From Antitrichia curtipendula (Eukaryota > Streptophyta > Bryopsida > Hypnales > Leucodontaceae), in contig OX579641.1 in NCBI GenBank assembly GCA_951230915.1, forward strand, positions 12,564,254-12,628,253: a stretch of DNA of 64,000 bases. Reading direction: 5' to 3'. How positions within the stretch are numbered: the stretch's first letter is position 1; each line of letters begins with the position of its first letter. A model generated the notes under the pieces. It was not told the DNA's origin. It saw nothing but the letters and a program-made list of their open reading frames with translations, and searched no databases. This document shows, piece by piece, positions 3,382 to 63,985 of the stretch. The position numbers and the translations under genes are program-made.

Positions 3382-3686
3382 TAGTAGAATAATTTTTCTC
3401 AAAAACCTTTGAACTAATGAAATGTGGGAGATTAAATTAAATTTCATCTCCAAAAATCCATTTCAAATTTCAAGTCTCCAATCAAAAGTCATGGAAAAAA
3501 TTCAGGGAGCGGTTGGAAGGGGCATTCTATTTTTGATATTTTCAAACATCCTCTTGAATTTTGTTTATAACTTTTTTTTAGAGGCTCAAAATCACAAATA
3601 GATTTTTGGAGATGAAATTTAAATTGATTTTTAATTATTTCTAGTTCAAAGTTGTTGTTTAAAAAAAATAATTCTATTATGCCTAA
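3382..3686. repeat. Imperfect inverted repeat
   Basis: A segment around 3390-3475 returns in inverted orientation around 3600-3680 with scattered mismatches. It is probably an old foldback element. Its termini are not clear. Confidence 0.5.
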
Positions 3687-4180
3687 ATGAAGTCTAAAAT
3701 TCTACTTTCAAGAATACAGTTCCTATGTTTTGACAATGAACAATTAAGCTCTCATCTTCAATTTATCCCATATCCTTTGAGGATTCATAATGGACAATGT
3801 ATTTCAATATAATAGCAACCTCTCCACCCTTCAATCTTAGAAAATCTCTATGAATTCATTCCTTATTAGGCCATCAACATATTTCTTGATGGTAGGAGGT
3901 CCAATGGTAATTGATTCAATGGATTGATAATGGATTCTTTGCATTGTCATGGATTTTAATTAATTCATATTGATGTTGCTATTTGTGTACGGGAATTCCC
4001 TTGTTTGATATGGTAGTGTTCCAATCACATCAAATATATTTCCATAACATTTACCAATGAAGGCATATTTAGGGGAACTTTTTGGAAACTCACGGTCTTC
4101 TTCTGCCTTGAAATCCCCTCTAGTGCTTTTGAATTTCTACAGTTTTTTGTGTAGGGACAACAATTTAGTTTTTGCTTTTG

Positions 4181-4495
4181 CATTACAAAAAATATGAGGC
4201 CTCCGGAAGGCCGTTAAGCCTGGACCCCGTAGTGATACTACGGAGTTTTTTTTCAAAAAAAAAAATTCAGAAACTGAAATTCTGACGTGGTCGAAGTTCC
4301 ACGCCAGCGCTGACGTCAGCGCCACATCAGCGTGACGTCACTTTTCAATTTTTTTTTTCGGGAAAAAAAAAAAAAAAAAGTTATTATTTTCCAAAAAAAA
4401 AGATTTTTTTTTTTTTTTTTTTTTCCGTAATATCACCCGCGGGTCCCGAAAATCAGCACTCACGGCCTTGTTGAGGCCTCATATTTTTTGTAATG
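4181..4495. mobile_element. MITE with CATTACAAAAAATATGAGG ends
   Basis: The ends are inverted copies of CATTACAAAAAATATGAGG, about 24 bases including the adjoining CCTC. The interior carries a long poly-A/poly-T block and CACGTCAG-like words. An opposite-oriented relative lies at 63754-63985 and shares the interior. There is no coding capacity, so it is non-autonomous. The superfamily is not assigned. Confidence 0.8.
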
Positions 4496-4756
4496 TTACC
4501 TTTACTAGTTTGGGGCATTGTTGTCCGAGGTTTCCAATATTTCTTCTTTTTATATTGTAAATAGGCTTTTCATAGACATATCAGAGTGGTGAGGTCGAGG
4601 TAATCATTAGTGAGATTGTTTTTTGTGCACCAAGAGGTTGATGCTTGTTTGAATTGTAGTAATTGAAAATAATTACTTGTGAGTTGCAACTTTAGTGATG
4701 ATATAGGTGTAGGTTTCCCTTAGCCTTTAGATAGTTTTTGTCTAAACAATCCTTTT

Positions 4757-6180
4757 ATGGTGCAAACTAGGAGTCAATATTATAGATTTCTTTTATCAAA
4801 GTACTTGGAGGATGAACTCACTAAAAACTTTGGGCCATTGGAGGATACCGATGAGGCTTTTCAGCTTGATTCAACATTAGGTACCACTAGCTAGGAAGAT
4901 TTGAGTCTTGAGTGTAAATATGTTTAACTATATAGAGAATGATCACCATAATTTAGTGCCTAATCAATTCTTGGGGGATATTGGGGTCATTTTTTTATTA
5001 GATTGGAAGCTCTCTATTTTTACATTTGGATGAAAGAGAAGTGCTAGAGGTCCCCTAATTTTTATGACTAGCTTGCCTTTGAGCTTCTACCTCAGCTTAT
5101 AGAGAATAAAACTTTCTAAATCTATAAGCGATGGATAGAGTACAATTGATTCAATCTTCAATAGTTGAGCATTATTGTGATGCATGGATAGAACTTATTA
5201 CTGCTTTTGGAGAGGTTGTTGCATCTTCCTTGTTGCTTTTTGAGGATGTAGAGGAGACAAAGCCCAAGACATCTACCAAAGAAACTTGTAAGGAAGCTAC
5301 TAAGGAAAAATTGTTGATGTCTACAAGGAGGCATGAGAGCATCCAATTTATTTTTTGGATGACATTAGCTACCTAGGTGATTCTACAACCCACTAGGCTA
5401 GCACCTGCTTCTAAGTCATTGCGCTTATTTCTTGAGTATCATGATGTTGAATACAAAGATTTTCGATGGGATGAGATGCAACAAATCTAGGATTTCAAAT
5501 GGAAGAAAGAATATATTCCTAGGACCATGTACATTTGATTGGTAGACTTTGCAATCAAATTTAGAGGTGTTTTTACTAAAAGACAATTGGTCAAGATCTT
5601 TCTTTCAAAAATTAATAAATGGTTACTTGATTTGGCTTCACCATGAATCATTTTGGACTATAAAAGTAAGGTCACTTTGGCCCAAGCCTTGTTAATGTTG
5701 AGAATTGTGATTGGGCTTTCTATCAACATATTGCTATGGATACGGTCTTGTGGATGGTTGACAATTTGAAGTCCAAAAAGACTCTTTCAATTTTTGGCAG
5801 TTTGTTTGATACTACACCTAATTGTTACTTGCATTGTTGGCTTTGTGGTCAAGATGGTCACTTCAATAAAAATCCACAATGTCTAGAATTTTCTAAAGAT
5901 CCACTTTAGCCTTCAAAGTCTAAGAAAAAAGAAGAGATCAAGGTTAAGGTGAAAGCTAAAGCAAAACTCTAAAAAAAGCAATTGAAGTGTAATCATTGTA
6001 GTGGTACCAATCATGATGATGCTCATTGCTTTTAGCTTCATTTTGAATTATAGTTCGTTAATTATGTGTCATTTAAGTCAAAATGGGATAAGACTCTTAA
6101 GGCTAAGGTTGGAGAACTTGAATAAGAATTCAAAATTTATGCATTTCTTATCCAAATCTTTGAGCCAAGGACAATTGTTG
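4757..6180 (+). pseudogene. Degenerate Ty3/gypsy gag with zinc knuckles
   Basis: From an ATG at 4757 (MVQTRSQ...) a gag-like frame can be followed through many in-frame stops, mostly TAG, and some frameshifts. Near the end are two CCHC zinc knuckles. One is at about 5836-5883 (C-x2-C-x4-H-x6-C, unusual spacing). The other at 5988-6029 has canonical C-x2-C-x4-H-x4-C spacing. A lysine-rich stretch lies between them. In the family, Gag packages the RNA and the knuckles bind nucleic acid. This copy cannot make a protein. Protease, methyltransferase-like, RT, RNase H and integrase remnants follow on the same strand, so it is the 5' part of one element. LTRs were not recognised. Confidence 0.75.
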
Positions 6181-6849
6181 GTGCTTTAGCTTTTGATATA
6201 TACATGTTTGGAACTTTAGAAGAGATGGTAGGAATGGTTGCTATTTGTGCTCAAACAACGAGGAAGGCTATGGCTCCCACTTGCAGTGATGGTAGTGGAT
6301 ATTTACTGGTTTGTCGTAGTGGCCCCACTAATCAGATTGGCCAAGCACAATCAACTTTATCACTTGGCTTGATAGATGTTGATTCTATAGTTAGGCCTAA
6401 GCTATTTGTTTTTGAAAGGTGGAAATATTGTTTTGAAGGATGTTATGCAAACCTTAGCTCATAAAGTTTTGCAAATGCTTATTTCTTTGGATTAGAGTTA
6501 ATGACACTAAGCTTCCAACTTGCAAGGAGTTTTCCATTTGGCTAGGATTATGTTAGAAGATACAACAAATTTGCCATCCCTACAAGTGTCTCAAGTTGTT
6601 ACTAAAGTGTCTCTAGTTGATTATCCTAAGGAATCAACTAGATTATGTGTGAAGCTTGCAGTTGAGGTTGTTCTTGCTTTTGAGGGGTACATTGCCATCT
6701 AGTCTTTAGTACATTCATTTTTAGAAGCATCCTTTGCAGTGGAAACAACTTATCTTGCAACTGTTTCTGTACGATCTGCTTGAAAGCATTAGAATTTGCA
6801 ACCTGGAATTGTTTGCGTGATAAATGACAATGTTATATTTGTTTTTTAA

Positions 6850-7200
6850 TGCATGGATAGCCATGCTATCTGTGCCAAGCCATTGAAAGTTGTGATGGAC
6901 TTAGGTGCATAGCCAATTATGATTAGCAAGCAACTTGCTAAGGCTCTTGATTTAATAGACGTAGACTTTGAGCCTTGTCCATTGACTATTGTGACCTTTG
7001 CAGGAGGCACGAAGCATACCGCAAGTTACACTAAAGAGCCTTTGCGTTTGATTTTCCATGTGGATGCAAGACCTACTTACTTGCATTTCTTTGTGAAATA
7101 TGTAGTCATGAGGACTACCAACTATGATATATTAGTTGGTTGGTAAGCTTTTTATCCTCTTGGTTTTGATTTGAACAATTAGATTGAAAAGGTGTGGATT
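6850..7200 (+). pseudogene. Degenerate retroviral-type aspartic protease (gypsy pol)
   Basis: The frame reads VVMDLGA then PIMISKQLAKALDL, with a TAG stop between them. This resembles the active-site D-x-GA region of gypsy proteases (normally D-S/T-G-A). The frame continues with a hydrophobic beta-strand pattern and a TTNYDILVGW-like segment, the family's C-terminal flap/strand region, ending at another stop. In the family this enzyme cuts the Gag-Pol polyprotein. It lies just downstream of the gag zinc knuckles. It is dead because of internal stops. Confidence 0.7.
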
Positions 7201-7535
7201 GGAGTAGGTTGATTTGCAAGTGATGAGAGAAAACAATTGATTCCCATAGCATTGGTAGCGGCAGTTATAACTATGTCAGCAAAGACTATATTATGTTGTA
7301 GTGCCTTAACAATAGACTTGATTTATATACAAGTTCTATTAGAGGAGACATTTGCTTTTGTGAGTGGTTTGGTAGAACGGTATGATTTTCCACCATTGGA
7401 AATTCTTGCATGACATCCCAAGGATCCATTTCCATCTTAGAGCACATGCATAGAGTTGTGATAGACTTTGTAAAGGCATCCATTATTTCATCTTTATCTA
7501 TTTTTGCTCAAACTATCCATTGGCCTTCATCGGTA

Positions 7536-8050
7536 GAGGATATTATCCCTATGGAGCTATTTGCAGGCATTGGTACTAGTTTGACAGCAGTGTTGAGTCC
7601 AAGCTCAAGGTTAAACAATACATTCATGTGGATATTAGATTTGTAACCAACCAAGTAGCACACTAGCACCAACATCATCTCTAGAGGTTGTTGGTTCTAT
7701 ATCATGAGCAATTATACCTTTCTACCATTTATGGTTGTTTTAGCCAACTTTCTTAAGGTGTCACTTTCATTAGTGATGGGATCATTTGAGTAAGTTGGAT
7801 CGTATTGATTTAGTTATTGTTGGATGGCCTTGCCAAAGCTATTTACGTGTCAGAGTAAGTTGGAATTTGGATGACCTTTGGACTAATCTATTTTTGGACT
7901 TGATACGCCTCACATAGTAGTGGTTTATACATCAATCCACCCCATTAGGATAAATTTTTGGAAATGTGCTTCTGTAGGGTGATACTCAACAGAAAGTTAT
8001 AGAAGATGGGAAATACATTATCCATCTTCTTAGTTCTCCAACCTTTGAAG
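7536..8050 (+). pseudogene. Degenerate C5-cytosine DNA methyltransferase domain in the gypsy element, N-terminal half
   Basis: The motifs are in methyltransferase order, allowing for stops and at least one frameshift. MELFAGIGTSLTAVL at 7551-7595 matches the SAM-binding motif I. QYIHVD at 7615-7632 fits motif II. LVIVGWPCQS carries the catalytic Pro-Cys-Gln of motif IV at 7828-7836, with the nucleophile Cys codon at 7831-7833. IFGNVLL near 7955 is a decayed motif VI Glu-Asn-Val with Glu replaced by Gly. The family methylates cytosine C5 in DNA. The position, after the protease and before the RT on one strand, means the domain belonged to the retrotransposon. Cytosine methyltransferases have been reported in some retrotransposons of dinoflagellates and a charophyte alga. 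Chance similarity is unlikely because four motifs are in order and the C-terminal part is also present (12090-12340). Confidence 0.78.
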
Positions 8051-11000
8051 ATGCTACCACTATTAAAAAAATTTGTGTCTTTTCTGACATATTTTTTTCA
8101 ACTTCCACCTTCTTTCTTGTTAACAAGACATTAAATTTAACATCAAGATATTACATTCAATATTATTGTTAACATAAAAACAAGTGTACAACATATGATT
8201 ACTCGGAAACAAAATCCAAGGAATCCCCTAGTGGTGGTTCTTAATTTTGGAGAAAGGTCAAATTGTTTTGTATCTAAGGTCACTTTTATGTAAATCCCAT
8301 TTAATTATGAATTAAAAAATCCCATTTAATTGTATATTTGTGTGGTGTAAGAATATTTTCTATCCTAATCTATACTATTAATCATCCATTACTAATGGAT
8401 GAAAATATAGGACATGCGGTCACTTTCTTGCATTAGAATTTTTAGTGTAAAATTGTTAAGGATATGTCAAATATATAGTCATGGTTCATGTTCTATCAAT
8501 GTAATCAAATCCACATATATTCATATTTGCGCACACACATACATTTACAAGCTCATTAATTACCTCTTTAATTTTAGTGGATTCTCAATTGGTCTAGTGA
8601 CTATCTTACTAGCCTAATTGCTAAAGATGAAGGTATGCAAATATCACAATCAGTAGTATCAATTGGTCTCTGTGTGCAAAGTATACAAAGGTGAGAATTT
8701 AGTCCTTTAATTTTAGTTAAGGTCAAATAGTAATTTGGGCTCTTTTCTCTAAACTCCGCAATATACCATATGTCAATTGGACCAAATTCCACAATGCACA
8801 TTTACAATTTAACAATTTTGCTACTTGTTAGTTTGTCAAATAATCTTACTATGCAAATATGACGGGTGATGCTATCTAACTCCAATAAATGGTCAATTTG
8901 TCCAAATTTCCACACATAATTAGTACATTAATTACACAAGTTCCTATCTAACAAAAGATTTTATTCCTTGATTCCTGCAATTGCACTTGCAATCATATAT
9001 TAGTATCGATTTGACTCACAACCAACAGAGAACAATCATTTCTTAACTTAATAACTTCCACATACTGTCCAATACTCCAATTGACATCACATTATATGTA
9101 ACTTCCAATTAACTTCAAACAACATGACAAATTGACCTCTTTCTATTACATCCATACCATTGTATAACATCCAAGACTCTCTCTTATATTTACTTCACAG
9201 ACAATTTGACTACAATGACACACAAACACCCACACCCATAGTCAATTAGACATACTTTAATACTCACCACTTTATCTTTTACAAATCCACTTAATATCGT
9301 GATAAGACAGACAGGCCAATAGATATTCATCAATGATTGTCTTTATTCAGACTAATAGACCGTAGAACACAAAGTTTACTTTAAATCATATTAACACTTA
9401 GAATACTTGACAATTGCAACTTAAATGATGTCTCAACGAGTATTAATCTTACGTCAATTGGACCAAAATTATAACCAAAGAACCTTGCCAATCCTTGGCT
9501 TTCTTCTCATAATTTTAATTATAGTCCATTTAACTTTAAAAAAAACTTCTTTCACTCATAACTATATCAAGAACTCTCAATGCAATCACAGCATCATCTA
9601 AGCATAATTAGGTCTCCAATTTGGTTAATAAACTAATAACCAAAAATAATCCACTACCAATCATTGACTTAATTCATACTTCAAAAATCATTCACTCGTC
9701 CAATTGATTAATTAAGATTACACACACATACCAGGCTGTACCATTGTACCAATCACTGTCTAATAGTCTTGAAGATTGAACTTGTCAATCATTGAAAACT
9801 TAAAGAATTTTAATACTTGGCCAATAGACTTAGACACAACGAACAACATTTTTAATTGACCAAGCAAAAAAGATTCATTGATAACCAACCAATTGACATA
9901 AAATATCCAAGAAATGTCAATCACTGGCTTACTTGGGCATCACACATTTGTAGTCTATTTGTCTTCCATTGCAACACTCCGGTAGCTTTTCCATAATTGT
10001 CCTTGCTCTTCTTCCGCACACTATTTGATAGTAGTTCCTCTAGCGCTTTGACAATTTGACAACTAATATTTTGACAAGAAACTACATTGCCAATTCTTGG
10101 CTATTTTTCTTCTTTCAAGGATCGTCTTTAGGTCTACTTGATCAATAACTAAAATTATGGACAACACCACTCACTGGCTACTTAACCAAAGTTTTTAATT
10201 ATGTTGATCAATGGTTGCTTCATACATACCTCAAAGATCAATTGACAAAGTATTCAAACTTCACAACTCTTGACTATTAGATAGATACAAGAAAATAATA
10301 GAGACAATGCCAATCATTGGCAATTTGCCCCAAAAAACTAAACTAAACCAATCACTGGCTAAACGAAATTACACACACAAAATTAGACAAATTGACAATT
10401 GTATTGAGCCTGAAGGAATGCATAAGTACATTAGACAAGGCGAGAAATCACTACAAGCCGTAGAGAGAGAAATTGGAAGTCGATTAGTCTTTGTACCTTC
10501 TTAGCTCCCTGTAACTAACTAAAAGTTAACCGCATTGTCTATTAGTCCTAACCAATTGTAACTCCTTAACTAACTGTCTACTAGTCATTCCAACAACCAC
10601 ATGTCTATTTAATTAGTTTCTTATTGTGATTCTATTCCAGTTAACTTTAGTTAGTTTATTTGATATCTATAATAAAAAAACTTCAAAATCTATCAAAAAA
10701 TCTATCTACATAGCCTCCAACTTTGAAACATTGATGTCCTTGTTAATTACGCCCAATTCGCTTGTTCCGATATTGATCTTGAGTATGCATTTGCTTCTCT
10801 ACCATTTGCAACATCTTGTCACTTAATTTCTTCACATCTTCGTCTTGCAACAATAATGGCTTATTCTTGTTGTTTTCTAATCGTTATTGAAGGTGTATAT
10901 AGTTGTTACCTAATTGTTATTGTTGCACAAAAGTTGCATTTTAATTGCTTAATTTAAAAATAATGACCTTGGAATGAGTTCATCCCACTTTCACAACTGA

Positions 11001-11327
11001 AAAAAAATACAACAATTGAAAGTCAAAGTGTTGACGTACATAGCAACTCAATTGTTATTGAGGATTGACTAAAACATGAATGTGAGTATCCTATACGACA
11101 TGCAAAAACAACTAAAGAACAACTATTGGAATGTTTTCTTATAATTTATCGTAGAAAAAATTTGGAGTAAAAAAATACTCAAATAATAAATAAATAAGCT
11201 TCACTGACATCTAATACAATTGCCACATTATCTTGCCTATGGAAATTTGACATGCACCATAGTTGTTTGGGGATGAAACTACTTTTCATTTGTCATAGTT
11301 GAAAATGGTATATAGAATGGTATATAG

Positions 11328-11863
11328 GGGTCATTGCAAGAAACACCTGCCGTTTTTGTNNNNNNNNNNNNNNNNNNNNNNNNNNNNNNNNNNNNNNNNN
11401 NNNNNNNNNNNNNNNNNNNNNNNNNNNNNNNNNNNNNNNNNNNNNNNNNNNNNNNNNNNNNNNNNNNNNNNNNNNNNNNNNNNNNNNNNNNNNNNNNNNN
11501 NNNNNNNNNNNNNNNNNNNNNNNNNNNNNNNNNNNNNNNNNNNNNNNNNNNNNNNNNNNGGGACATGTCCAACTAGTGTAGGAATAGACCACTAAGATTT
11601 CTTTCCTAAATCATTAAATTTGGATACTCTTTAGTACAAAAAACAAAAAACGTTGAAAGTGTGATAAATTAGAGAAATTTACTTTTAAATATAAAATGAT
11701 TTTTGAAATTTTCTGAAAAATAAGTGATACAATTTCAATCAAGACATCTAGAAATAGATTTTTTGCTTTGGCATTGGGCTTAAAACTCAAAAGTTATAGC
11801 TTGGACAAAAACTAGTTTTGCAAAACGCTAATAAAAACGGAAGGTGTTTCTTGCAATGACCCA
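11328..11863. mobile_element. MITE with GGGTCATTGCAAGAAACACC ends, containing the gap
   Basis: The left end (11328-11359) and right end (about 11832-11863) are inverted copies of GGGTCATTGCAAGAAACACC plus about a dozen following bases. The right half is closely similar to 49630-49935. The left interior is mostly the run of Ns. It is non-autonomous and of unassigned superfamily. Confidence 0.75.
11360..11559. other. Assembly gap, 200 Ns
   Basis: There are exactly 200 N characters, which looks like a nominal gap size. The open frames that cross it are artefacts. It falls inside an inverted-repeat element, a common place for assemblies to fail. Confidence 0.99.
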
Positions 11864-12089
11864 TGTATAGTGGCGGGAATGCTAAGTAGATGTGATGATG
11901 TGGAAGTGAATGCCACAACACTAAATACATTGGTAAAACTTGTTGATGAACTTTCAACTAAGTTAACAACTGAGAAATAATCCTTTTGTCCTTTGCGACT
12001 ACATTTTCAAAAATGGCTTATCCACAATGATTGTAACTCCTTAGATTAGTACTAGTTGCACACGTCCCTTACAACTCAAAAAGTTGCCG

Positions 12090-12340
12090 TAAATGTAATT
12101 GAAAAAAACTCATATTCTTTTGGTGAAGGTGGAGGCACCTTGTGGTGCATTGCCTACATTTGTGATCTATCAAATGTCTTTTGCATTTTGAGCACATGGA
12201 CTTGACATGGTTTGGGATTGTCAAACTCATGGAGAGTTGACTTCCAATGAGTGGAACAATGCCATGGGATTTCTGAATGGTATGACTATTGCTTATGACC
12301 TCATAGAAAATCAATGCGGTTTGTTTTTTTGGGCTAAGTT
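12090..12340 (+). pseudogene. Degenerate C5-cytosine methyltransferase domain, C-terminal part
   Basis: The frame from 12123 reads APCGALPTFVIYQ, then a stop, DMVWDCQTHGELTSNEWNNA and MGFLNGMT (the last around 12261-12290). In the retrotransposon methyltransferases I know of, the C-terminal block has an A-x-PT-x-V start, a VWD segment, and an R/N-AMGFP-x-G-T end equivalent to motifs IX-X. Order, spacing and strand fit the N-terminal half at 7536-8050. The block runs into a hydrophobic linker (GLFFWAKL...) that leads to the reverse transcriptase. It is decayed by stops and cannot function. Confidence 0.68.
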
Positions 12341-12956
12341 GTGGATCTCAACACTCTAATGTGGATTATTGGCACATGTCTTGTTGTTCATCAACATCAT
12401 GGTGGGCACTTGCTTGCTTTGAGGTCAGCAGACAATGGATAGGAGGCAATGTAGCCAAAACCCAAATATGACATCGAGGTTGAGGAATTTGAGTTACTTT
12501 TTTGTTTGGGGTAACATGCTAAAGAAAAGCTTTGAGCTCAACATGTTTTGGGGCCCTAAACTCAAGATTTTGGGAGATTAGAGACATTGAGGATGTTTCT
12601 ACAAGTATATAACAACGAGAGTTTAATTGTCAGCGGCTTTACAATCTTATGAACTAACTATAGTGAAGAGGTTTCTCATTTGGCTCTAGAGGAAGACTTT
12701 GGGAGTACGGATATTGCCCCATTCATGGATTAGAGATTTTGTTTTGTTTTGGCACCAAGTAGAGATTTTTGGGTTGAGGAAAAAACACATAGTTTGATGA
12801 TAGGCCATTGAAGTTAGAGCCAAATCTTATTGGTGTCAAAGCAAGTAGGGCATAGCGCTTGTATCACAATTGTTTTGCCTTTAGACTCAAGGATCTTAAG
12901 GGCTATAGAAGCAAGCCTATTTATATTTAGTTGGAGGATGACCACCCAACCTTTAA
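12341..12956 (+). pseudogene. Degenerate linker between methyltransferase-like domain and RT
   Basis: Open stretches broken by stops continue in the direction of the retrotransposon. None matches a named domain. The final codons before the inserted element (GAG GAT GAC CAC CCA ACC) read straight into the RT start once the insertion at 12957-13897 is skipped. Confidence 0.5.
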
Positions 12957-13897
12957 CCCCTAAAGGTTTTAGAATATGTTTTTACCAAAACGCTCCAAAA
13001 CTGCCATTTTTAGGACAAGTACCAAATTTATTTCTTAAATTTTTTTTGAACACATGTAACCGTAAGATCTTGTAGTAAACTAGTTTGAAAACATGTGGAG
13101 ATTTTTTCAGGAATTTCCACCATGTAGATTGCAAGATATTAGCATTTGAATTGGAAAAAAAACTTTTTTTGGTCCTGCGAAAATCGGGCAGCTACACTTG
13201 AGATGGTCACATGTGTATGAAAATGCCCGAAATGGTGGGTCACTCTTTGGATTCATTCTTGAAGGCAAGCTGGAAACATGCTTGAAAATTTTCAGATCAT
13301 TTGGAATTGAACAACACATAGGAAAAAATAGTAAATAGAAAGAAGTAGAAAATTATTCAAAACACTAAATTGTTAACAATTTACTCATGGAATTGAAAAA
13401 TCCCAATTCCAATGGTTGTAATGGTGTAGTAAATAGTCTACACCTAATGTTTTTATTTTTTTTCAAAAATATTTAAAATTGAATTAAATAAAGGGCTTCA
13501 AAGTTTATCATAGAGTAGAGATTCCACAACTACCTGCAAATTACCCACAAACTTAAACTCCCATAAATTTTATTGCATTGATCCAAATGGAATTATTAAA
13601 AGCTTTCCATGTATATAAAGATCTAAAGAAGCATTTTCAAATTTTAATTTAAAAAAAAGTGAATTTTCAAGAAGTTTTTTTTGCTGCCTAGGTTGCTCAC
13701 CGAGCAATAAAACCAACATATCATACCATAACTTTTTAACCATGTAGTCAAAAGTTATGAAAATTATTGGGCCTTAAAGCTACTCCTTGGGCACATATTA
13801 TGTGAAAATTTCAAAGAAAAAAACCAAAAACTCCATTTGTAGTGAGCTGTTCAAAATTGTTATGTTGCCAAAAAAACACATTTGAGTGCTTTAGGGG
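12957..13897. mobile_element. piggyBac-like non-autonomous element (TTAA flanks) inside the gypsy pol
   Basis: The element begins CCCCTAAAG and ends CTTTAGGGG, with TTAA immediately outside both ends (12953-12956 and 13898-13901). It is 941 bp with no convincing ORF. Its interior matches 31808-32752 in reverse orientation, for example the stretch reading CTGCCATTT then ACAAGTACCAAATTT near one end. Skipping the element and one TTAA joins the gypsy frame as E-D-D-H-P-T-F-K-V-P-Y, the expected entry into RT. A duplicated TTAA with CCC-starting inverted ends is the hallmark of the piggyBac superfamily. Confidence 0.85.
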
Positions 13898-13901
13898 TTA
13901 A

Positions 13902-14470
13902 AGTCCCTTACAAACTTAGTGTCTCAAAGACGGATGGTGTCCAAACACATTATAGAGAGTTATTGGAGACGGATTTGATTGAGCTTTTGAGTGGCAAATA
14001 TGCTTGCACTACGGTTATACCTTCTAAAAAGGATTTGTTTGGCAATTGGATAGAGAAGCAATTATATGGAGATTATCATCTACTAAACCATAAGACCAAG
14101 TTAAATTAGTATCCAATGTTAATGTCAAAGGAGATATTTGATGCAATAGGATTTTCTTGAGTTTGTAGTATTTTGGTCTTACAGTCTAATTATTTTTAGT
14201 TGTAACTACCTATGGAAGATTGGATAAAGACAACATTTTGGAGAATTTATCAAAATGGCAAGGATCATCTCTATCACTAAAAGTTTCTTCCATTTAGCCT
14301 TAAGAATGCACTAGTTGAATTCTAGAGGGTGATGGACTAGATCTTGATTGGCTTACCATTTGTTAGGTGCTAAATTGATTATGTTATTACCTTTAGTAGT
14401 AGCCCACATGAGTATTTGAGGCATTTGTAAGCAATGTTTGAGTGATTATAATAGTAGGGACTACACTTGC
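13902..14470 (+). pseudogene. Degenerate Ty3/gypsy reverse transcriptase
   Basis: It reads KVPYKLSVSKTDGVQ, RELLETDLIELLSGKYACTT and VIPSKKDLFGNW, then GDYHLLNHKT and a YPM segment. Later come FLPFSLKNALVEF and a decayed catalytic box reading IDYVITFSSSPHEYL around 14370-14410. Gypsy enzymes have YIDDV there. Here the Tyr codon position is a stop and the second Asp is Tyr, so the enzyme would be dead even without the many TAG/TGA stops. In the family it copies the element's RNA into DNA. The 5' edge is set by the piggyBac-like insertion. Confidence 0.88.
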
Positions 14471-15180
14471 ATGATGACAAGTGTAAGTTTTTCATGACCA
14501 ATTACCATACTTGGGCCATATGATTGTTCTAGGAGGTCTTGGAGTGCAACAATCAAAGGGAGATGCTTTGCAAAAGATTCCAGCACCTAATGATGTTTTG
14601 TGACTTTGATCTTTTCTTGGTCTAGCAAATTATTACCGCCGGCATGTCAAAAACTTCAATTTGATTGTGAAGGTTTTGACTATTTTTATGGACAAAGACC
14701 AACCATGGATTTGGAATTGTGAGTAATATTAGACATTTGACACATTGAAGAAAAGGCTATGTTATGTTCTAGTGCTTTGATGGCTTGATGCTTCCAAATC
14801 TTTCCAATTGTACACAAATTAGAGTGTAGCAAAATTGGGAGCAGTTTTCACACAAAAATGATGATGAATGACAGTAATGTCCTTGCATTGTTTCTAGAAG
14901 CAATAACAATGCGGAATCTAACTGTTCATCTTACAAAGAGAGGTTTTGTCTATAGTTTGGTCCATTGCAGACTTTTGCCTTTATTTATATGGACAATATT
15001 TCACTTCGGTGATAGACCATTAGCCTTCAAAATGACTTGCTAAATTAAATAAGCTCACTAGCAAACTTGCTAGGTGGGTTTTAATGCTTAAGAAATATGA
15101 TTTTGAGGTGGTACATCAAGTGGGCATCACCAACTTAGATGCAGTTGAACTTTCCTAAAATTCAAGTTAGGTGGCATTGG
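14471..15180 (+). pseudogene. Degenerate RT connection and RNase H region of the gypsy element
   Basis: Fragments in order match the family: a DKCKFFMT-like piece, HLGHMIV-like remains, IPAPNDV, FLGLANYYRR-like remains and an NFNLIVK piece. Then follow FQLYTN (the RNase H start, family TDxS, with the catalytic Asp replaced by Asn) and LGAVFTQK. At 15070-15150 lie LARWVLMLKKYDFEVVHQVG and TNLDAV, the RNase H C-terminus. Multiple stops and frame changes show long decay. In the family RNase H removes the RNA strand during reverse transcription. Confidence 0.8.
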
Positions 15181-15479
15181 GACTACAATAGAGAAGTAGT
15201 TTCAGATTAGCACGCAATTTCTTATTATACATTGATGTTAGGATTTACTTTTCGTGCATTTGTTGAGGACTAAGATGAAAAAGCTAGCAAGTCTCCAATT
15301 GTGAGTGATGTATGGGAAGATTTTGCAACCTAGTACAAAATTCAACAATGGACATTTCTTTTAGCTATATATTTTTGCCATGGAGTGGGATAGAGTTAGC
15401 TATCGAGTAGCGAGATTCTATTGGGACAACGGTTTGCTATTTCATGTGCAAACATATGAAACTAGACGCATATTTCTAA

Positions 15480-15888
15480 GGCCAGATTAAAGAGTTTTTG
15501 GGGTACAATAAGTACACAAAGACCTTGGACATTTTGTAGTTTGTAGGACACATTCTATATTGCGCAATTTGTATTGGTGGATTAGCATGTATCAATATGT
15601 TGCCACTTATGTTTCTCAATGTGAGATGTGTGACCAAATTAGGTCAAGTTTTAATACCTTATCACCTTAGTTGAGGCCTTTACCTATCATGAGCTTGAGC
15701 TACCATTGGTCATGTTGAAGCCTTGAGCAGCCATGGTAGATTGGTGTCCAAATTCTAAAATTTGGTAAGCCTAGGCTCCTGTGTTCCGCTAGCATGGAAA
15801 CAATGTGGTACAAAAGATAGCCTAGCTTTGACCATTTACACTTTGGGTTGTTATTCCGCCTAATAGTTTGGTTGTCCAATTGCTCTAA
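15480..15888 (+). pseudogene. Degenerate gypsy integrase, zinc-binding domain and start of the core
   Basis: From about 15514 the frame reads VHKDLGHFVVCRTHSILRN, then YWWISMYQYVATYVSQ and CEMCDQIRSSFNTLSP. That is the H-x-H/C-x2-C zinc domain with all four ligands kept. LRPLPIMSLSYHWS, the approach to the catalytic core, follows. After 15720 the similarity fades through frameshifts. A miniature element begins at 15889, and no core D,D-35-E motif is seen. In the family integrase inserts the cDNA. This is the 3' limit of the recognisable retrotransposon. Confidence 0.82.
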
Positions 15889-31637: not shown

Positions 31638-32880
31638 CTAAGTCCGTTGAAAGAATGAATCGATAATACTTTGGCGAGTTTCTGCTACACGTCAAGATTC
31701 TATTTCCTTTTCTAGTGCTTCAATATTCCTAATAGATAACATGGTGTCATTAGGTCTTTGCTCCAAAAACTTTTTCAAAGTTTGAAGAGCACTACCTACA
31801 TCTTTAACCCCTAAAGGACCAAACACCGTTTTTTGACAACATAGCGTTTTGGGGCAGCTCACCACAAATGGAATTTTTATTTTTTTTCTTTGAAATTTTC
31901 ACACAAGATGTGCCCGAGGAGTAGCTTTAGGGACCAACAATTTTCATAACTTTTGACCACATGGTTAAAAAGTTATGGTATGATATGTAGTTTTCATTGT
32001 TCGGCGGGCAGCCCGGGCAGCAAAAAAAACTTCTTTAAAAATCATTTTCTAGAGAAATAAAAATTTGAAATTGGTTCTCTAGATTTATGTGCACAAGGAA
32101 AGCTTTGAATCATTCCACTTTGATTTATGAGATGAAAGTTATGAGGAATTTTAGTTGTGGGTAGTTTGTGGGTAGTTATGGAATCTCTACTCTAAAATAA
32201 ACTTTGAAGTCCTTTATTTAACTCAATTTTCAATATTTTTGGAAAAAAATATAAACGCAAGGTGTAGATTGTTTATTACAACATTATAATCGTTTGGATT
32301 GGCATTTTTCAGTTCCATAATTAAATCCTTAACAATTTAGTGTTTTGAATCATTTTCTACTTCTTTCTACTTACTATTTTTTTCCTATATGTTGTACAAT
32401 TCCAAATGATCTGAAATTTTTCAAGCATGTAGCTAACTTGCTTTGAAGAATGAATCCAAAGAGTTACCACCATTTTGGACATTTTTTCATACAAATGTGA
32501 CCATGTGAAGTGCAGCTGCCCGGTTTTTCGCAGGGACAAAAAAAAGGTTTTTATCACTCCAAATGCTAATTTCTTGCAATCTACACGGTGGAAATTTCTG
32601 AAATTTTTTCCACATCTTCTCAAACTAGTTTACTACAAGATCCTACGGTTACATGTGTCCAAAAGTGTTTTTTTTCCAAAATTTGGTACTTGTACTAGAA
32701 ATGGCAGTTTGGGAGCATTTTTTGTGAAAACATAGTCAAAAAACTTTAGGGGTTAAAGCCTACAACCTCTTCTACTATATCGTGAGGATTACTATCTTCG
32801 TGTTCGCTACCTTGTTGTTGAGATGGAAGCATTTCAAGAATTTCTTCATCAGTCCTCGAGTGTTAGGGGTCTCAGTCTCA
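31638..32880 (-). pseudogene. C-terminal fragment of a pogo-like transposase, split by an insertion
   Basis: On the minus strand, the part upstream of the insert (about 32757-32850) reads ILEMLPSQQQGSEHED then DIVEEVVG. The part downstream (31638-31803) reads VGSALQTLKKFLEQ, RNIEALEKEIES, a TGA stop, then RVAETRQSIIDSFFQRT and a natural stop. A short helical L-x2-FLEQ segment followed by a terminal I/T-x-DFF/DSFF is typical of Tigger/pogo transposases. The two parts join in one frame when the inserted element and one TTAA are skipped. It cannot be active because the DNA-binding and DDE domains are absent. Confidence 0.72.
31808..32752. mobile_element. piggyBac-like non-autonomous element nested in the pogo remnant
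   Basis: The ends are CCCCTAAAG and CTTTAGGGG with TTAA on both sides (31804-31807; 32753-32756). It is 945 bp with no coding frame, and its interior matches 12957-13897 in reverse orientation. Its removal leaves one TTAA and rejoins the transposase frame (codons GTA GGC TTT AAA GAT GTA), a clean empty-site reconstruction. Confidence 0.88.
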
Positions 32881-46501: not shown

Positions 46502-47433
46502 TCAGTTTTTCCCCACCAAAGTTAAGGCACGGCTCACCTCGTCCTGCAGCATGTCGCAAACGGTGGCCACGATGTCCCTTCGATACGCCACTTCCCCGAT
46601 CGCCTTCACGTACTCGATGCCCGTCCTCCCCTGCAGCTCCCGCAGCGCCTGCGTCCACAACGCCACGTCCACGCGATCGTCCTCCCGCGCCCACTCCGCC
46701 CACGCCTGCATCCAGCGCTCGCGACGTCTGGCCCGCTTGAACTCCTTGCAAGACAAACCGAAGAACAAAGGCACGATGCGGGGCTTGGTGGGGGCTTGCA
46801 CTAAGGCTGCGAGTTCCAGCATGGGCCACTTGGTGCGGGAGAAGTACTCCTCGGAGATGACCACCACCGCCAGCTCGCACTCCTGGGCCGCCGACAAAAT
46901 GCGCTGCACACCAGGCACGGAACCATGAACCATCGTATCTAGCTAGCTAGTTCCCTTGTGATTTAAACTCCCTATTAATTTCAAAACTAGAAAAGCATAC
47001 ATTTGGGCTCTGAGTCTTCAAAATCTCCGGCCATGAAAAAATATCGCCAAGGATTTTTCAAGTGCACTCAAATCTCTTTAAAACTTCTCAAAGACGACAT
47101 TGCCAAACATTGTGCACATTTTCTGCTTTGTCACATCACATCATCATCTCCATATTGTTACCGACAGTAGCACATATGCAACACACATTCAAATAACGTC
47201 GCAGTGAGATCCCAAGTGGCCATGGCTACCTGAGGGAATGGTTGTCCTCGGGGCAGTCGTTTATCGAAGAAGGGCGACTGTCGTGCTCTCTCCAAATCCA
47301 CGCACAACTGCTCCGCGAAGCTCTTCTGCGTCCCCGAGTGACTCAGAAATACGTTGTGCCTCGACACCAGCACCCAATCTGCACGGGGATCCGTCACTGG
47401 GACATGCTCCACCATCGATGAGTTACTATTCAT
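46502..47433 (-). CDS. Small TIR-domain protein
   Basis: The exons are 47230-47433 and 46502-46903, in phase, giving 201 residues. The start ATG at 47433 is chosen because the longer frame begins with GTG and has a TGA just upstream. The TIR core is visible: HNVFLSHSG (26-34), a pocket/BB-loop region FFDKRLPRGQPFPQ ending exon 1, then ECELAVVVISEEYFS, and KWPMLEL with the conserved Glu98 where plant TIR NADases have their catalytic Glu. There is no NB-ARC or LRR, so it is TIR-only unless spliced onward (see 45275-45367). Plant TIR proteins act in immunity by cleaving NAD+ to signalling nucleotides; activity here is inference. Both exons are notably GC-rich for this window. A divergent member of another TIR class is possible. 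Confidence 0.86.
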
Positions 47434-49560: not shown

Positions 49561-50300
49561 AAGGTAGGGTGCTCTAAAAGCACCCATCTCCTTCAAACCA
49601 TTCCTATTTTTAAGTGAAAAATAGAGATAGGGTGGGATCATTGCAAGAAACACCTGCCATTTTGGGTAGCGTTTTCCAAAACCGATTTTTGTCCGAGCTA
49701 TAACTTTTGAATTTTAAACCCAATGCCCAAAACAAAAGATCTATTTCTAGAGTTTTTGATTGTAATAGTATCCCTTATTTTTCAGAATTTTTAAAAAATA
49801 TTTAATATTTAAAAGTCAATTTTGTTAATTTGTCACAAAATTAGGTTTTGTGGTTTTTTTTACTAATGAGCGGTTCAATTTTATGATTTTGAGCTGAAAT
49901 TTCTATGGTATATTCCTATAGTAGGCGGACATGTCCCTACCAAATGGCCTTTAAAAATACATTATTTTATGTCCTCCACATTTGTGCAAACAGGCCTTTT
50001 TTTGTCCTCCCTTGCACGCGCACTTCAACCATTAGTGATGGTTTTGACCTAATTTTTTTAGTCAAGTCTCATCACCAAGAAGTCCTTCCAAATGGCCAAT
50101 TTTTAGTTTATTTGAAAATTGGTTTTCCTATTTTTCTACAAATTAAAACGTCCAAGGATGTATTTTCTAGGACATATTTTAGGACATAGAATTCTTGGTG
50201 AAAATGTCACAGATCCATATTAGGACCACTTGAAGTTCATTTTATACCTAAATATAGGGTCAGTTTGAAGAAGATGGGCGCTTTTAGAGCACACTACCTT
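49561..50300. mobile_element. MITE with AAGGTAG...TAAAAG ends, copy 3, with another MITE nested
   Basis: The ends are AAGGTAGGGTGCTCTAAAAG and (inverted) AAGGTAGTGTGCTCTAAAAG. The interior differs from copies 1 and 2 and includes a segment (49630-49935) of the GGGTCATTGCAAG family. It is 740 bp. Confidence 0.75.
49630..49935. mobile_element. Half of the CATTGCAAGAAACACC MITE, nested
   Basis: It begins GGGATCATTGCAAGAAACAC and matches the inverted right half of 11328-11863 through GCTATAACTTTTGA and on to GGACATGTCC. The other terminus is not seen. Confidence 0.7.
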
Positions 50301-58631: not shown

Positions 58632-60705
58632 TAGTACCCGGCAAGTCTAATTCGTCCACCCCTGCTACTGCTGAAATTCAGCAGTGAACTTGGAACTTGG
58701 AAATGCCACCAGTGGCTCAAAAATCCATGGAATTGCAAACCGTAAATTGCATTTGGAAGATATTGAAGTCTAGTTTTATAATATAATGATTTATTACATT
58801 AAAAAAGTCAAAATATACAACAATAGGGCATTTAGTGACACACTATCTACCACTTAGTACTACCGCCCCCTGCATTGATTATGGCCTTCATTCGGCGAGG
58901 CATGCTAGCAATGAGGATATCGAGAGTCTCCATGGGTACGGCTTCCCATGCCCTCTCAATGCTTTTGACCAATTCATCTTTGTTGTTTGGTCTGGTCTCA
59001 TTTTGTACAAAGTCTTTTAAAATCATCCATACATTCTCTATAGGATTCAAGTCTGGCGAGTTTGCAGGCCATGTAATCTTCTGAATCTTATGCGCTTCTC
59101 GCCATTGTCTTGGTAAGGTAGAGCGATGCACTGGGGCGCCATCCTCCATGAGCAAAAGACTTTGTGGATCATCATGCATAAAATAAAAGCCACTCAATCG
59201 CCCCTCATACACAACATCCACAAAATCAGCACTCGTCCGTCTATCAAATGGCATAACAACAATGGGGCACTTCTCGTAACCTGTAAAAGCACCCCAAATC
59301 ATGACGGATGTGTGGCCGGATTTGAAAATGGGCGTTAAGCAATCCTGTGAATAACGTTCGTATGGTCGCCGCCAAACCTTCACTTGCCGTGAATTCTTGC
59401 CAATCTCGAATGAGGCCTCATCTGTCCATATTACATTCATCCAATCCGATACTTCCCAAGCTTGATATTTTTTGGCAAATATCAATCTATGAGCCTTGTG
59501 CTTGTTACTAAGAAATGGCTTCTTTGCTGCAACGCAGTTATGAAATCCTATACGTTTAATCTCTTTTCGTAACGTACGCACACAAACTTTCTCGGTCATC
59601 TTTTCTTTGATAGATACAAGCGGAATGCGTCTATTCTGTGTAAGAATGTGTCCCAACTCCCTTCTATCTCGATCAGTTAGTTTGCAACGCCGACGTACAA
59701 CCTTACGAGTGACCACTGTTCCATCATTGCGGAATTTCTTCAAAACGTACTCAATAGTGGAACGTGGTATGCCTAACTTCACAGCAATGCTACGTTGTGA
59801 CAAACCGGAATGACTCATTCCAACTATGACACCTTTTTCCTCTATACTCAAACGTCGACCTCCCATTTTTGCACAATCTAAACAGAAGAAAATACACTTC
59901 AAAATGCAAATGTTGATGAAATTAGAATGTAGTCTCTAACCTGCAAGACATATCAAGACACAACATGAGTGATCTATTGCATTACACAGTTGAACATATC
60001 TAAACATACCTCTAAATGCCAAGTCTTTTGCAATGCATTTTGAAATTTCACTTTCAGTTAGAAGAACTTGAAGTATGCACAGGGATTGAAATGCATCTCA
60101 ATTCTGAAACACTCAAAAAATGCTTCACAGCATGAATTTCGAAATCTTGGCAACGCTACACTGTCACACAAGCATTCCTACTTAGTGGCAATCAAAGTAT
60201 ACCAAAACTCACCAATTGAGCTTGAAGACATAAAAATCAGCCCTCACATCAAAATTGCTTGCATTCACAAGGTTTGATAACAACTGCTCTCTAACAACTA
60301 TTGCCTAGCAAGAGAATGATGAAATAGAAATCCATGCATTGAACATCTCCAAGACAAAAATTTGAGTTCAATGAGTTCATTCACAAGCTCCATTTGTACA
60401 AAATTTCAGTTCAGTTTGAGCAAATCTGAGATCTCCATGTGCATCGATGATTCTAGAAGTTGTATGCTGGAGTTCCCACCACAATGACACATGGTTGTTA
60501 ATTTAGGATTTCCACCAAGATTTTTCAAGTATCTCAATAAATGCTCAGTGACACTTGTAGTTACATTAGTGATTAACCTAATGTCACTAATTTTAGCTTC
60601 TAATTCGAACAGGTGGAGAAGCGGAAGCGCTTCGAAGTACCAGGAGTGACTTCGGAGAAGACTCAGTTTGGTGCAGGGTGGACGAATCAGACTTGCCGGG
60701 TACTG
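58632..60705 (-). mobile_element. Tc1-like DNA transposon, apparently complete
   Basis: The left end TAGTACCCGGCAAGTCTAAT and the right end (inverted) CAGTACCCGGCAAGTCTGAT continue matching to about 32 bases with a few changes and one indel. TA duplications flank it at 58630-58631 and 60706-60707. The element is 2,074 bp. It encodes one full transposase (58847-59866, minus strand). About 0.8 kb of leader lies between the right end and the start codon. All parts needed for mobility appear present. Confidence 0.92.
58847..59866 (-). CDS. Tc1/mariner-superfamily transposase, DD34E
   Basis: It encodes 339 residues without a stop or frameshift, a normal Tc1 length. The ATG at 59866 is chosen; the longer frame starts with TTG, and a TTTCTTCTGTTTAG just upstream looks like a splice acceptor of a leader intron. 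An N-terminal helix-turn-helix pair spans about residues 5-110 (GLSQRSIAVKLGIPRSTI; RTLRKEIKRIGF). The catalytic triad is visible: Asp149 in WTDEASF, Asp242 in MEDGAPVH and Glu277 in NSPDLNPIENVW, with 34 residues between the last two. Such enzymes cut and paste the element at TA. Plant mariner-like elements are usually DD39D, so a DD34E Tc1 type is notable. It lies inside matching terminal repeats. Recent arrival is inference from its intact frame. Confidence 0.95.
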   Translation of the reverse strand: MGGRRLSIEEKGVIVGMSHSGLSQRSIAVKLGIPRSTIEYVLKKFRNDGTVVTRKVVRRRCKLTDRDRRELGHILTQNRRIPLVSIKEKMTEKVCVRTLRKEIKRIGFHNCVAAKKPFLSNKHKAHRLIFAKKYQAWEVSDWMNVIWTDEASFEIGKNSRQVKVWRRPYERYSQDCLTPIFKSGHTSVMIWGAFTGYEKCPIVVMPFDRRTSADFVDVVYEGRLSGFYFMHDDPQSLLLMEDGAPVHRSTLPRQWREAHKIQKITWPANSPDLNPIENVWMILKDFVQNETRPNNKDELVKSIERAWEAVPMETLDILIASMPRRMKAIINAGGGSTKW

Positions 60706-63753: not shown

Positions 63754-63985
63754 CAATACAAAAAATATGAGGCCTCAACAAGGTTGTGAGTGCTGATTTT
63801 TGGGACCTGCGGGTGATATTACGGAAAAAATTAAATTAAATTAAAAAGTGACGTCATGCTGACGTGGCACTTCGACCACGTCAGAATTTCAGTTCAAGGA
63901 TTTTTTTTTTGAAAAAAACCTCTGTAGTATCACTACGGGGGTCCAGGCTTAATGGCCTTTTGGACCCCCCAAATTTTTTGTAATG
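63754..63985. mobile_element. MITE with (C)ATTACAAAAAATATGAGG ends, copy 2
   Basis: It starts AATACAAAAAATATGAGGCC and ends AAATTTTTTGTAATG. The interior shares CCACGTCAGAATTTCAG and the ACTACGG/CCAGGCTTAA block with 4181-4495 but in reverse order, so the two copies are inverted relative to each other. It is 232 bp. Confidence 0.8.

Follow-up and report, generated by a model that had tools for sequence, protein, structure and literature searches.

A dead Ty3/gypsy element that probably belongs to an old family with a Dnmt3-like cytosine-5 DNA methyltransferase in its polyprotein

Previous studies have reported retrotransposons that carry a cytosine-5 DNA methyltransferase (DNMT). According to the parts of PMC5890265 that were available, De Mendoza et al. 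(2018) described KnitGypsy-Dnmt3 from the charophyte Klebsormidium nitens, in which a Dnmt3 lies in the gypsy Pol polyprotein, and SymbioDIRS-Dnmt3 from Symbiodinium; in the same parts, a published retrotransposon DNMT is reported to methylate CG de novo. The 2018 cases from streptophytes and dinoflagellates are cited in the accessible text of PMC12344493, which also mentions long terminal repeat (LTR) Copia and DIRS families, and a 2019 paper stated that such elements are lacking in land plants. In the present study, we analysed a window of 64,000 nucleotides (C9:12564254-12628253 of a 400-Mb moss assembly; mean G+C 0.375), in which a sequence-only reading had proposed a gypsy element with its own C5 methyltransferase. 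Our results indicated that this element is probably a dead copy from an old Ty3/gypsy family of many branches, in which a Dnmt3-like C5 methyltransferase is a standing part of the polyprotein. As judged from the sequences, the observation is larger than first stated, as it concerns a family with a conserved and still readable methyltransferase and more than one relic.

The family is of the same kind as KnitGypsy-Dnmt3, the closest published element. As far as the available description of that element goes, the two share the gypsy domain set, a non-rearranged Dnmt3-like DNMT in the polyprotein, DIRS-like repeats and purifying selection on the DNMT. They differ in host, and in the moss genome the family occupies at least 56 places and is divided into several deep branches. 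Going by description only, a leaky UAG, a PHD finger, 4-bp duplications and repeat-less copies are unmentioned in the accessible text of PMC5890265, and a word search of it returned neither 'PHD' nor 'readthrough'. SymbioDIRS-Dnmt3 resembles the present family in its Dnmt3 DNMT within the retrotransposon polyprotein and its A-coding-B-A-B repeats (PMC5890265, same parts), but it is a DIRS element with a tyrosine recombinase, whereas the present family has a DDE integrase (rve) and 4-bp duplications. In a search of the full-text literature (excluding subscription papers and preprints), no title or abstract reported a DNMT-bearing retrotransposon from a land plant, or a leaky UAG or PHD finger in a DNMT-bearing retrotransposon. 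We found no report of a leaky UAG of the tobacco mosaic virus (TMV) type between DNMT and reverse transcriptase (RT), of a PHD finger after the integrase, or of repeat-less copies with 4-bp duplications in such elements.

The decayed Ty3/gypsy element extends over about 5179-15712 on the plus strand of the window (Table 1) and is longer than the sequence-only reading had stated. Its DNMT lies between the protease and the RT, and its two halves are separated by a stretch of about 4 kb, where about 64 DNMT residues have no counterpart. Motif I (MELFAGIGTSLTAVL, 7551-7598), a motif II-like YIHVD (inside 7586-7660), motif IV (DLVIVGWPCQS, about 7804-7839), a degraded motif VI with GNV in place of ENV (near 7960) and a C-terminal block with AMGFLNGMT (inside 12138-12314) were found in the correct order on the plus strand, in different reading frames and with numerous stops. 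Motifs I and IV and the C-terminal block are retained, motif VI is decayed, and motif VIII was absent when the 64-kb window was searched by tblastn with the DNMT of a relative in the same genome, locus L010. An Asp_protease_2 match at 6862-7218 (E = 0.0071) fell below the Pfam cut-off, and the remainder of the integrase (DDE core) had no match in the window by Pfam or by tblastn with relatives.

The letters of the window alone gave weak signals. PF00145 matched 43 amino acids at 7786-7914 (E = 0.0032, below the Pfam cut-off), NCBIfam dcm matched one piece at 0.037, and among solved structures the window pieces reached methyltransferases at best E-values of 0.2-0.7; the motif I piece and the C-terminal block had no DNMT match in Pfam. 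The broken protease and DNMT, used as queries against protein databases, returned no match, a further search of this kind gave two weak gypsy polyproteins (8.9e-4 and 9.8e-3), and viral contigs searched for the piece between DNMT and RT gave 39 pattern matches, none of them confirmed. The same-genome relatives, however, matched clearly. The L010 DNMT matched an N-terminal part (7551-7598, 7586-7660 and 7780-8064, linked; E = 2e-11) and, collinear with it, a C-terminal part (12138-12314; E = 4e-8). The subfamily of L018 and L020 matched the window collinearly over gag, protease, DNMT (7488-8064; 2.5e-18) and RT to integrase (12856-15712; best 8e-107). The nearest copies found, L078 and L079 (53% identity over 95 amino acids and 58% over 52 in the stretch from motif IV to VIII), are broken, as is the window copy. 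These comparisons indicated that the window DNMT match lies far beyond chance. The explanation that the motifs are chance matches or misread decayed coding sequence without any methyltransferase, which the weak scores and empty database searches favour, is almost certainly wrong and was refuted by relatives with a clear PF00145 domain that match both halves of the window in order.

The main claims of the sequence-only reading were accordingly borne out. Motifs I, IV and a decayed VI stand in order between protease and RT, with the DNMT of relatives collinear; the downstream block AMGF-x-x-G-x-T belongs to the same domain, the DNMT had been placed at the right coordinates, and the matches of L010 and L018/L020 along the window supported a gypsy element with its own methyltransferase. 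The copy was also rightly called dead, with motifs spread over several frames, many stops, and interruptions in both DNMT and RT. In the matched parts, the relative has Q, W or R at the positions of 31 of the 62 in-frame stops (counted without a chance control), as C-to-T decay would give.

The order of parts in better-kept relatives is Gag zinc knuckle, protease, DNMT, UAG, RT, RNase H, integrase and PHD finger. In L010, zf-CCHC and PF00145 share one frame of 1207 amino acids, and after a single UAG the same frame continues through RT, RNase H, integrase and PHD over 1050 amino acids, with RVT_1, RT_RNaseH, H2C2 and rve (DDE core) in Ty3/gypsy order. Pfam scores among the relatives were 3.4e-14 for PF00145 (L010), 5.3e-6 for zf-CCHC, 1.4e-30 for RVT_1, 1.3e-13 for rve and 1.3e-10 for PHD. 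In L011, L017 and L020, a protease shares a frame with the DNMT and lies ahead of it, with weak scores below the Pfam cut-off (0.0024-0.0063). Relatives with protease, methyltransferase and RT in order, which the sequence-only reading had expected in the same genome, were thus found. Since the DNMT stands ahead of a conserved in-frame UAG, it belongs to the Gag-protease side of the polyprotein.

A genome-wide search with PF00145 gave 43 matches, several in long open frames. Forty-two were classed, several by eye from translations and the rest by tblastn, as 28 element domains, six DRM, four DNMT3, three DNMT1-like (one weak) and one on contig C199; the match at C8:25219680 stayed outside the classification. 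The C199 locus (L002; contig of 48,505 bp) is the strongest PF00145 match of the assembly, has overlapping long frames and by eye looks like foreign (phage or bacterial) DNA. Among the element places, about 10 kb was read at 17 of 28, both ends at four and the UAG junction at 15. The L010 DNMT matched the genome in 79 rows, or at least 56 places, a count that may miss decayed copies, given that these rows did not include the one in the window. The L010 RT gave at least 84 rows at E<=1e-30; with 83 of 886 candidates scored, all these counts are lower bounds, and rows within 4 kb were merged into places. At least 47 rows, at least 39 places, were family RTs (49% identity or more), and 37 rows were other gypsy RTs, 33-38% identical to the L010 RT and in frames of 564-2218 amino acids. 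A DNMT lay within 6 kb upstream on the same strand at 30 of the 39 family places (21 of 39 with PF00145 matches only) and within 10 kb of none of the 37 other RTs. The window segment is therefore not an unrelated insertion into a family that otherwise lacks the domain, a possibility which the sequence-only reading had named as its own refutation. As a separate observation, five rows of ordinary gypsy RT with 1367-amino-acid frames at exact 9350-bp spacing in C5:24249175-24288005 look like a tandem array.

The C5 DNMT motifs I, IV (PCQ), VI (ENV), VIII, IX and X are present in order in both L010 and L018, which are 48% identical and share PCQ, ENV, GS-AH-R, ERERAMGF and GQAMDL. The order is canonical from I to X, without the rearrangement of the DRM type; rearranged DRM genes are confined to streptophytes according to the available part of PMC12344493. 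The closest solved enzymes were DNMT3A/B from motif I on (DNMT3A, 1.5e-12), followed by the bacterial HhaI (4.6e-7). Entries named DRM2 (3.9e-4) and 4onj ('DNA methyltransferase', 1.2e-7), which we take to be a tobacco DRM, matched over the first 125-128 residues. A fold search also ranked DNMT3A first, with a poor model (mean pLDDT 51) and TM-scores of about 0.4. On these sequence comparisons, the element DNMT is classed as Dnmt3-like, with PCQ in motif IV against PCN in DNMT3A. PCQ is also found in four intron-bearing host DNMT3-like genes (L029, L063, L065 and L068), against PCN in animal DNMT3A (PDB).

The host genome has its own rearranged DRM (named by eye), intron-bearing DNMT3 and DNMT1-like genes. 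Its assembly includes ten large contigs of 25-56 Mb, and the rearranged DRM genes agree with a streptophyte host. The L010 DNMT was 26% identical to the DRM (E = 2e-6) and 35% identical to DNMT3 over 78 columns (E = 1.5e-4), L018 and L019 matched the host DRM and DNMT3 more weakly than L010 did, and identities among element DNMTs were 31-80% and more. In a tree of 13 of the 28 element domains and six host domains, with an Escherichia coli dcm region as outgroup only, the 13 element DNMTs were separated from host DNMT3 and DRM as one group (support 84/70; recovered in 98% of bootstrap trees), in an alignment in which the host rows fill less than half of the columns and long branches meet. Because the elements form one group apart from the host genes, the tree fits a single old acquisition of the DNMT. 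The explanation that the DNMT is a stray fragment of a host gene in one element, and no part of a family, gains from the presence of host DNMT3, DRM and DNMT1-like genes and from the nine of 39 family RT places that show no DNMT upstream. It is nevertheless very unlikely, and largely refuted, since the DNMT occupies the same position at 30 of 39 family RTs, the element DNMTs form one tree group, and similarity to host genes is low compared with that among the elements.

Selection on the domain was evaluated by the ratio of nonsynonymous to synonymous substitution (dN/dS), using a simple counting method (own script) on 10 DNMT copies. When the young L010 group, L016 and L019 were compared with one another, 13 comparisons gave 0.07-0.16; six of them, between the young group and L019, gave 0.13-0.16 at dS 0.71-0.81, and the remaining seven were near saturation. 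Stop-free DNMT domains were found in four of the 10 aligned copies (L010, L017, L018 and L019). Several observations weigh against a family with a standing, functional DNMT. Inside the young group dN/dS was 0.32-1.65 (15 comparisons), and between L018 and L020 it was 1.15, values that fit decaying copies. Saturation affected dS to L018/L020, with 12 of 16 comparisons undefined and four giving 0.18-0.29. Motif residues are altered in two of the four stop-free domains (PYQ for PCQ in L019; ARWPCQ and ATRF in L017), and most of the copies examined are therefore dead. A gag-side stretch of about 940 bp is missing from L010, where five others have 944-1265 bp, and the leaky UAG was seen neither in the window element nor in L078 and L079, all of which are broken. 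Low ratios between branches together with higher ratios inside the young group indicated that the domain was under purifying selection while the branches lived, and that most present copies are decaying.

The stop between DNMT and RT was TAG in all 15 junctions read, and 13 of them had the exact context UAG-CARYYA (exceptions L012 and L022), which is also present in L018/L020 despite a DNMT only 48% identical. The chance expectation for TAGCARYYA is about 0.3 per 9.9 kb and strand at equal base frequencies. The flanking codons vary, with mostly CAA before the stop (AAC in L018/L020) and CAA or CAG after it. The sequence CARYYA is described as a readthrough context in the available parts of PMC2754532 and PMC4132726, and in the former, TMV-type leaky contexts in plants gave readthrough of 32% (TMV) and 11% (beet necrotic yellow vein virus). 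The junction, kept as UAG-CARYYA between branches, thus matches the TMV type I readthrough signal at the level of sequence. Since the same part of PMC2754532 lists a rice gypsy element among the candidates for readthrough, readthrough in itself is no novelty among plant gypsies. Because stops are frequent in family copies, we also considered that the UAG might not serve programmed readthrough, and might instead be a defect passed on by descent or an ordinary stop with the RT initiated internally. This is unlikely, given that the stop is TAG in every junction and in frame in L010 and others, and that the hexamer is kept while the flanking codons differ. If the UAG is leaky, about 70-90% of ribosomes would stop there, judging from the two viral values, and the DNMT would be made at a Gag-like level, in excess over RT and integrase. 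The integrase frame ends in a C4HC3 PHD finger (PF00628, 1.3e-10 in L010), which was found by pattern in nine of 15 long element loci, L018 included, and would steer integration by reading a histone tail. Plant chromoviruses are Ty3/gypsy elements with a histone-reading module after the integrase; the present family resembles them in having such a reader there, and differs in having a PHD finger for the chromodomain, plus the DNMT.

The element ends were read in four copies. L010 has the layout A (331 bp), interior, B (347 bp), A, B within a TGCT duplication, and its repeat copies are 98% alike (7 and 9 mismatches). L013, L015 and L012 consist of A, interior and B without a second A or B, within duplications AGTC, TGTG and ATGG, respectively. 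A begins with TGTC, B ends with GACA (AACA in L012), and the B/A junction of L010 reads GACA-GC-TGTC; the 4-bp duplications are perfect in all four copies. Identical LTRs at both ends were not seen, as three copies are without terminal A/B repeats and L010 has split repeats, and a repeat search found no LTR pair within about 5 kb of 15 element copies. The family is thus gypsy by its domains and departs from gypsy by its repeats, as is reported for KnitGypsy-Dnmt3. Alternatively, the split repeats of L010 could be a local rearrangement, with true ends in ordinary LTRs that were missed. The A-interior-B-A-B layout was indeed read in one copy only, against the repeat-less form in three, but all four copies combine TGTC...GACA/AACA ends with perfect duplications, and a DIRS-like repeat arrangement is reported for KnitGypsy-Dnmt3 in the available part of PMC5890265; we therefore regard missed LTRs as rather doubtful. 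For the layout as read, we propose that reverse transcription would define the repeat as B-A, with circles of one or two such repeats being formed. The DDE integrase would open these circles at the B|A junction, giving A-interior-B from one-repeat and A-interior-B-A-B from two-repeat circles, and only insertions of the latter kind could template the next round. Plant substitution rates are near 1e-8 per site and year; if they hold here, the repeat divergence would date the L010 insertion to roughly 1-2 million years ago.

As to the role of the enzyme, the DNMT would be packaged with Gag and would methylate the new cDNA or its circle before integration, which would either mark the cDNA for host recognition or shelter it from host recognition. 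We consider the chances about even that this is its main role. It is quite possible, although we do not favour it, that the main target of the DNMT is RNA, of the element or the host, or else the host genome, with self-silencing or disturbance of the methylome as the result. In the available part of PMC5890265 no single role is settled on, and a DNMT from a LINE is reported to have shown no DNA methylation when assayed in yeast. Moreover, the 31 of 62 window stops opposite Q, W or R would be expected from methylation and deamination by whichever enzyme. On the other hand, the Gag-side position in the polyprotein suits packaging, and Dnmt3-like domains act on DNA. The whole scheme would be that of a living land-plant gypsy lineage with an abundant Gag-protease-DNMT, an RT-integrase-PHD made by TMV-type readthrough, self-methylation and integration from circles; we offer this full scheme only tentatively.

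Table 1. Parts of the decayed element in the window, with the evidence for each.
Feature	Position	Strand	Evidence
gag remnant	5179..5700	+	tblastn with L018 open frame 1326-2351, E = 2.7e-18
Aspartic protease and following stretch	6721..7434	+	tblastn with L020 open frame 3588-4817, E = 2.7e-35
DNMT start including motif I (FAGIG)	7488..7598	+	linked tblastn pieces, L018 and L010
DNMT motifs II-III, second frame	7586..7777	+	linked tblastn pieces
DNMT motif IV (PCQ) and degraded VI (GNV), to DA before motif VIII; third frame	7780..8064	+	tblastn with L010 and L018
Stretch splitting the DNMT, without match to the DNMT of relatives	8065..12137	.	gap between collinear matches
DNMT C-terminal part, motifs IX-X (AMGF..G.T)	12138..12397	+	tblastn with L010, E = 4e-8 (12138-12314); more pieces to 12397
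First part of RT frame	12856..12954	+	tblastn with L018/L020, 63-65% identity over 31-33 amino acids
Dispersed repeat inside RT	12955..13899	.	blastn within window (12951-13903); RT match breaks off and resumes at edges
RT and RNase H	13900..15167	+	tblastn with L020 RT, E = 1.2e-102, linked pieces; RVT_1 7e-7, RT_RNaseH_2 1.8e-5
Integrase start with H2C2 zinc finger	15166..15712	+	Integrase_H2C2 2.7e-11; tblastn with L018, linked pieces, 8e-107

Other repeats and frames were also observed in the window. The stretch that splits the DNMT contains a repeat resembling a miniature inverted-repeat transposable element (11321-11869, 37-bp inverted ends), of which a partial second copy lies near 49633-49937; the sole N run of the window (200 bp, 11360-11559) falls inside it. 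The dispersed repeat of about 950 bp within the RT (12955-13899) has an 84% copy at 31802-32758 on the minus strand and, by eye, inverted ends of the type CTTTAACCCCTAAAG. A short repeat occurs in inverted copies, 86-94% alike, near both window ends (4181-4495 and 63754-63985), and a 91-bp unit stands twice in tandem at 37-218 (99% alike). On the minus strand, an uninterrupted frame of 362 amino acids at 58847-59935 looks by eye like a Tc1/mariner-like transposase, and a frame at 46502-46942 resembles a TIR domain by eye. No tRNA or Rfam match was found in the window.

If the host is a land plant, the 2019 statement that land plants are without such elements needs correcting. Plant transposons are held in check mainly by host cytosine methylation, a picture that would be turned round by an element maintaining a methyltransferase of its own under purifying selection. 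The leaky stop and the repeat-less insertions pose questions on the balance of Gag and Pol and on the mode of integration. As several branches have a readable domain, activity, substrate and readthrough are open to testing. With relatives of the dead copy that have a readable enzyme in the same genome, such elements may mark their own DNA.

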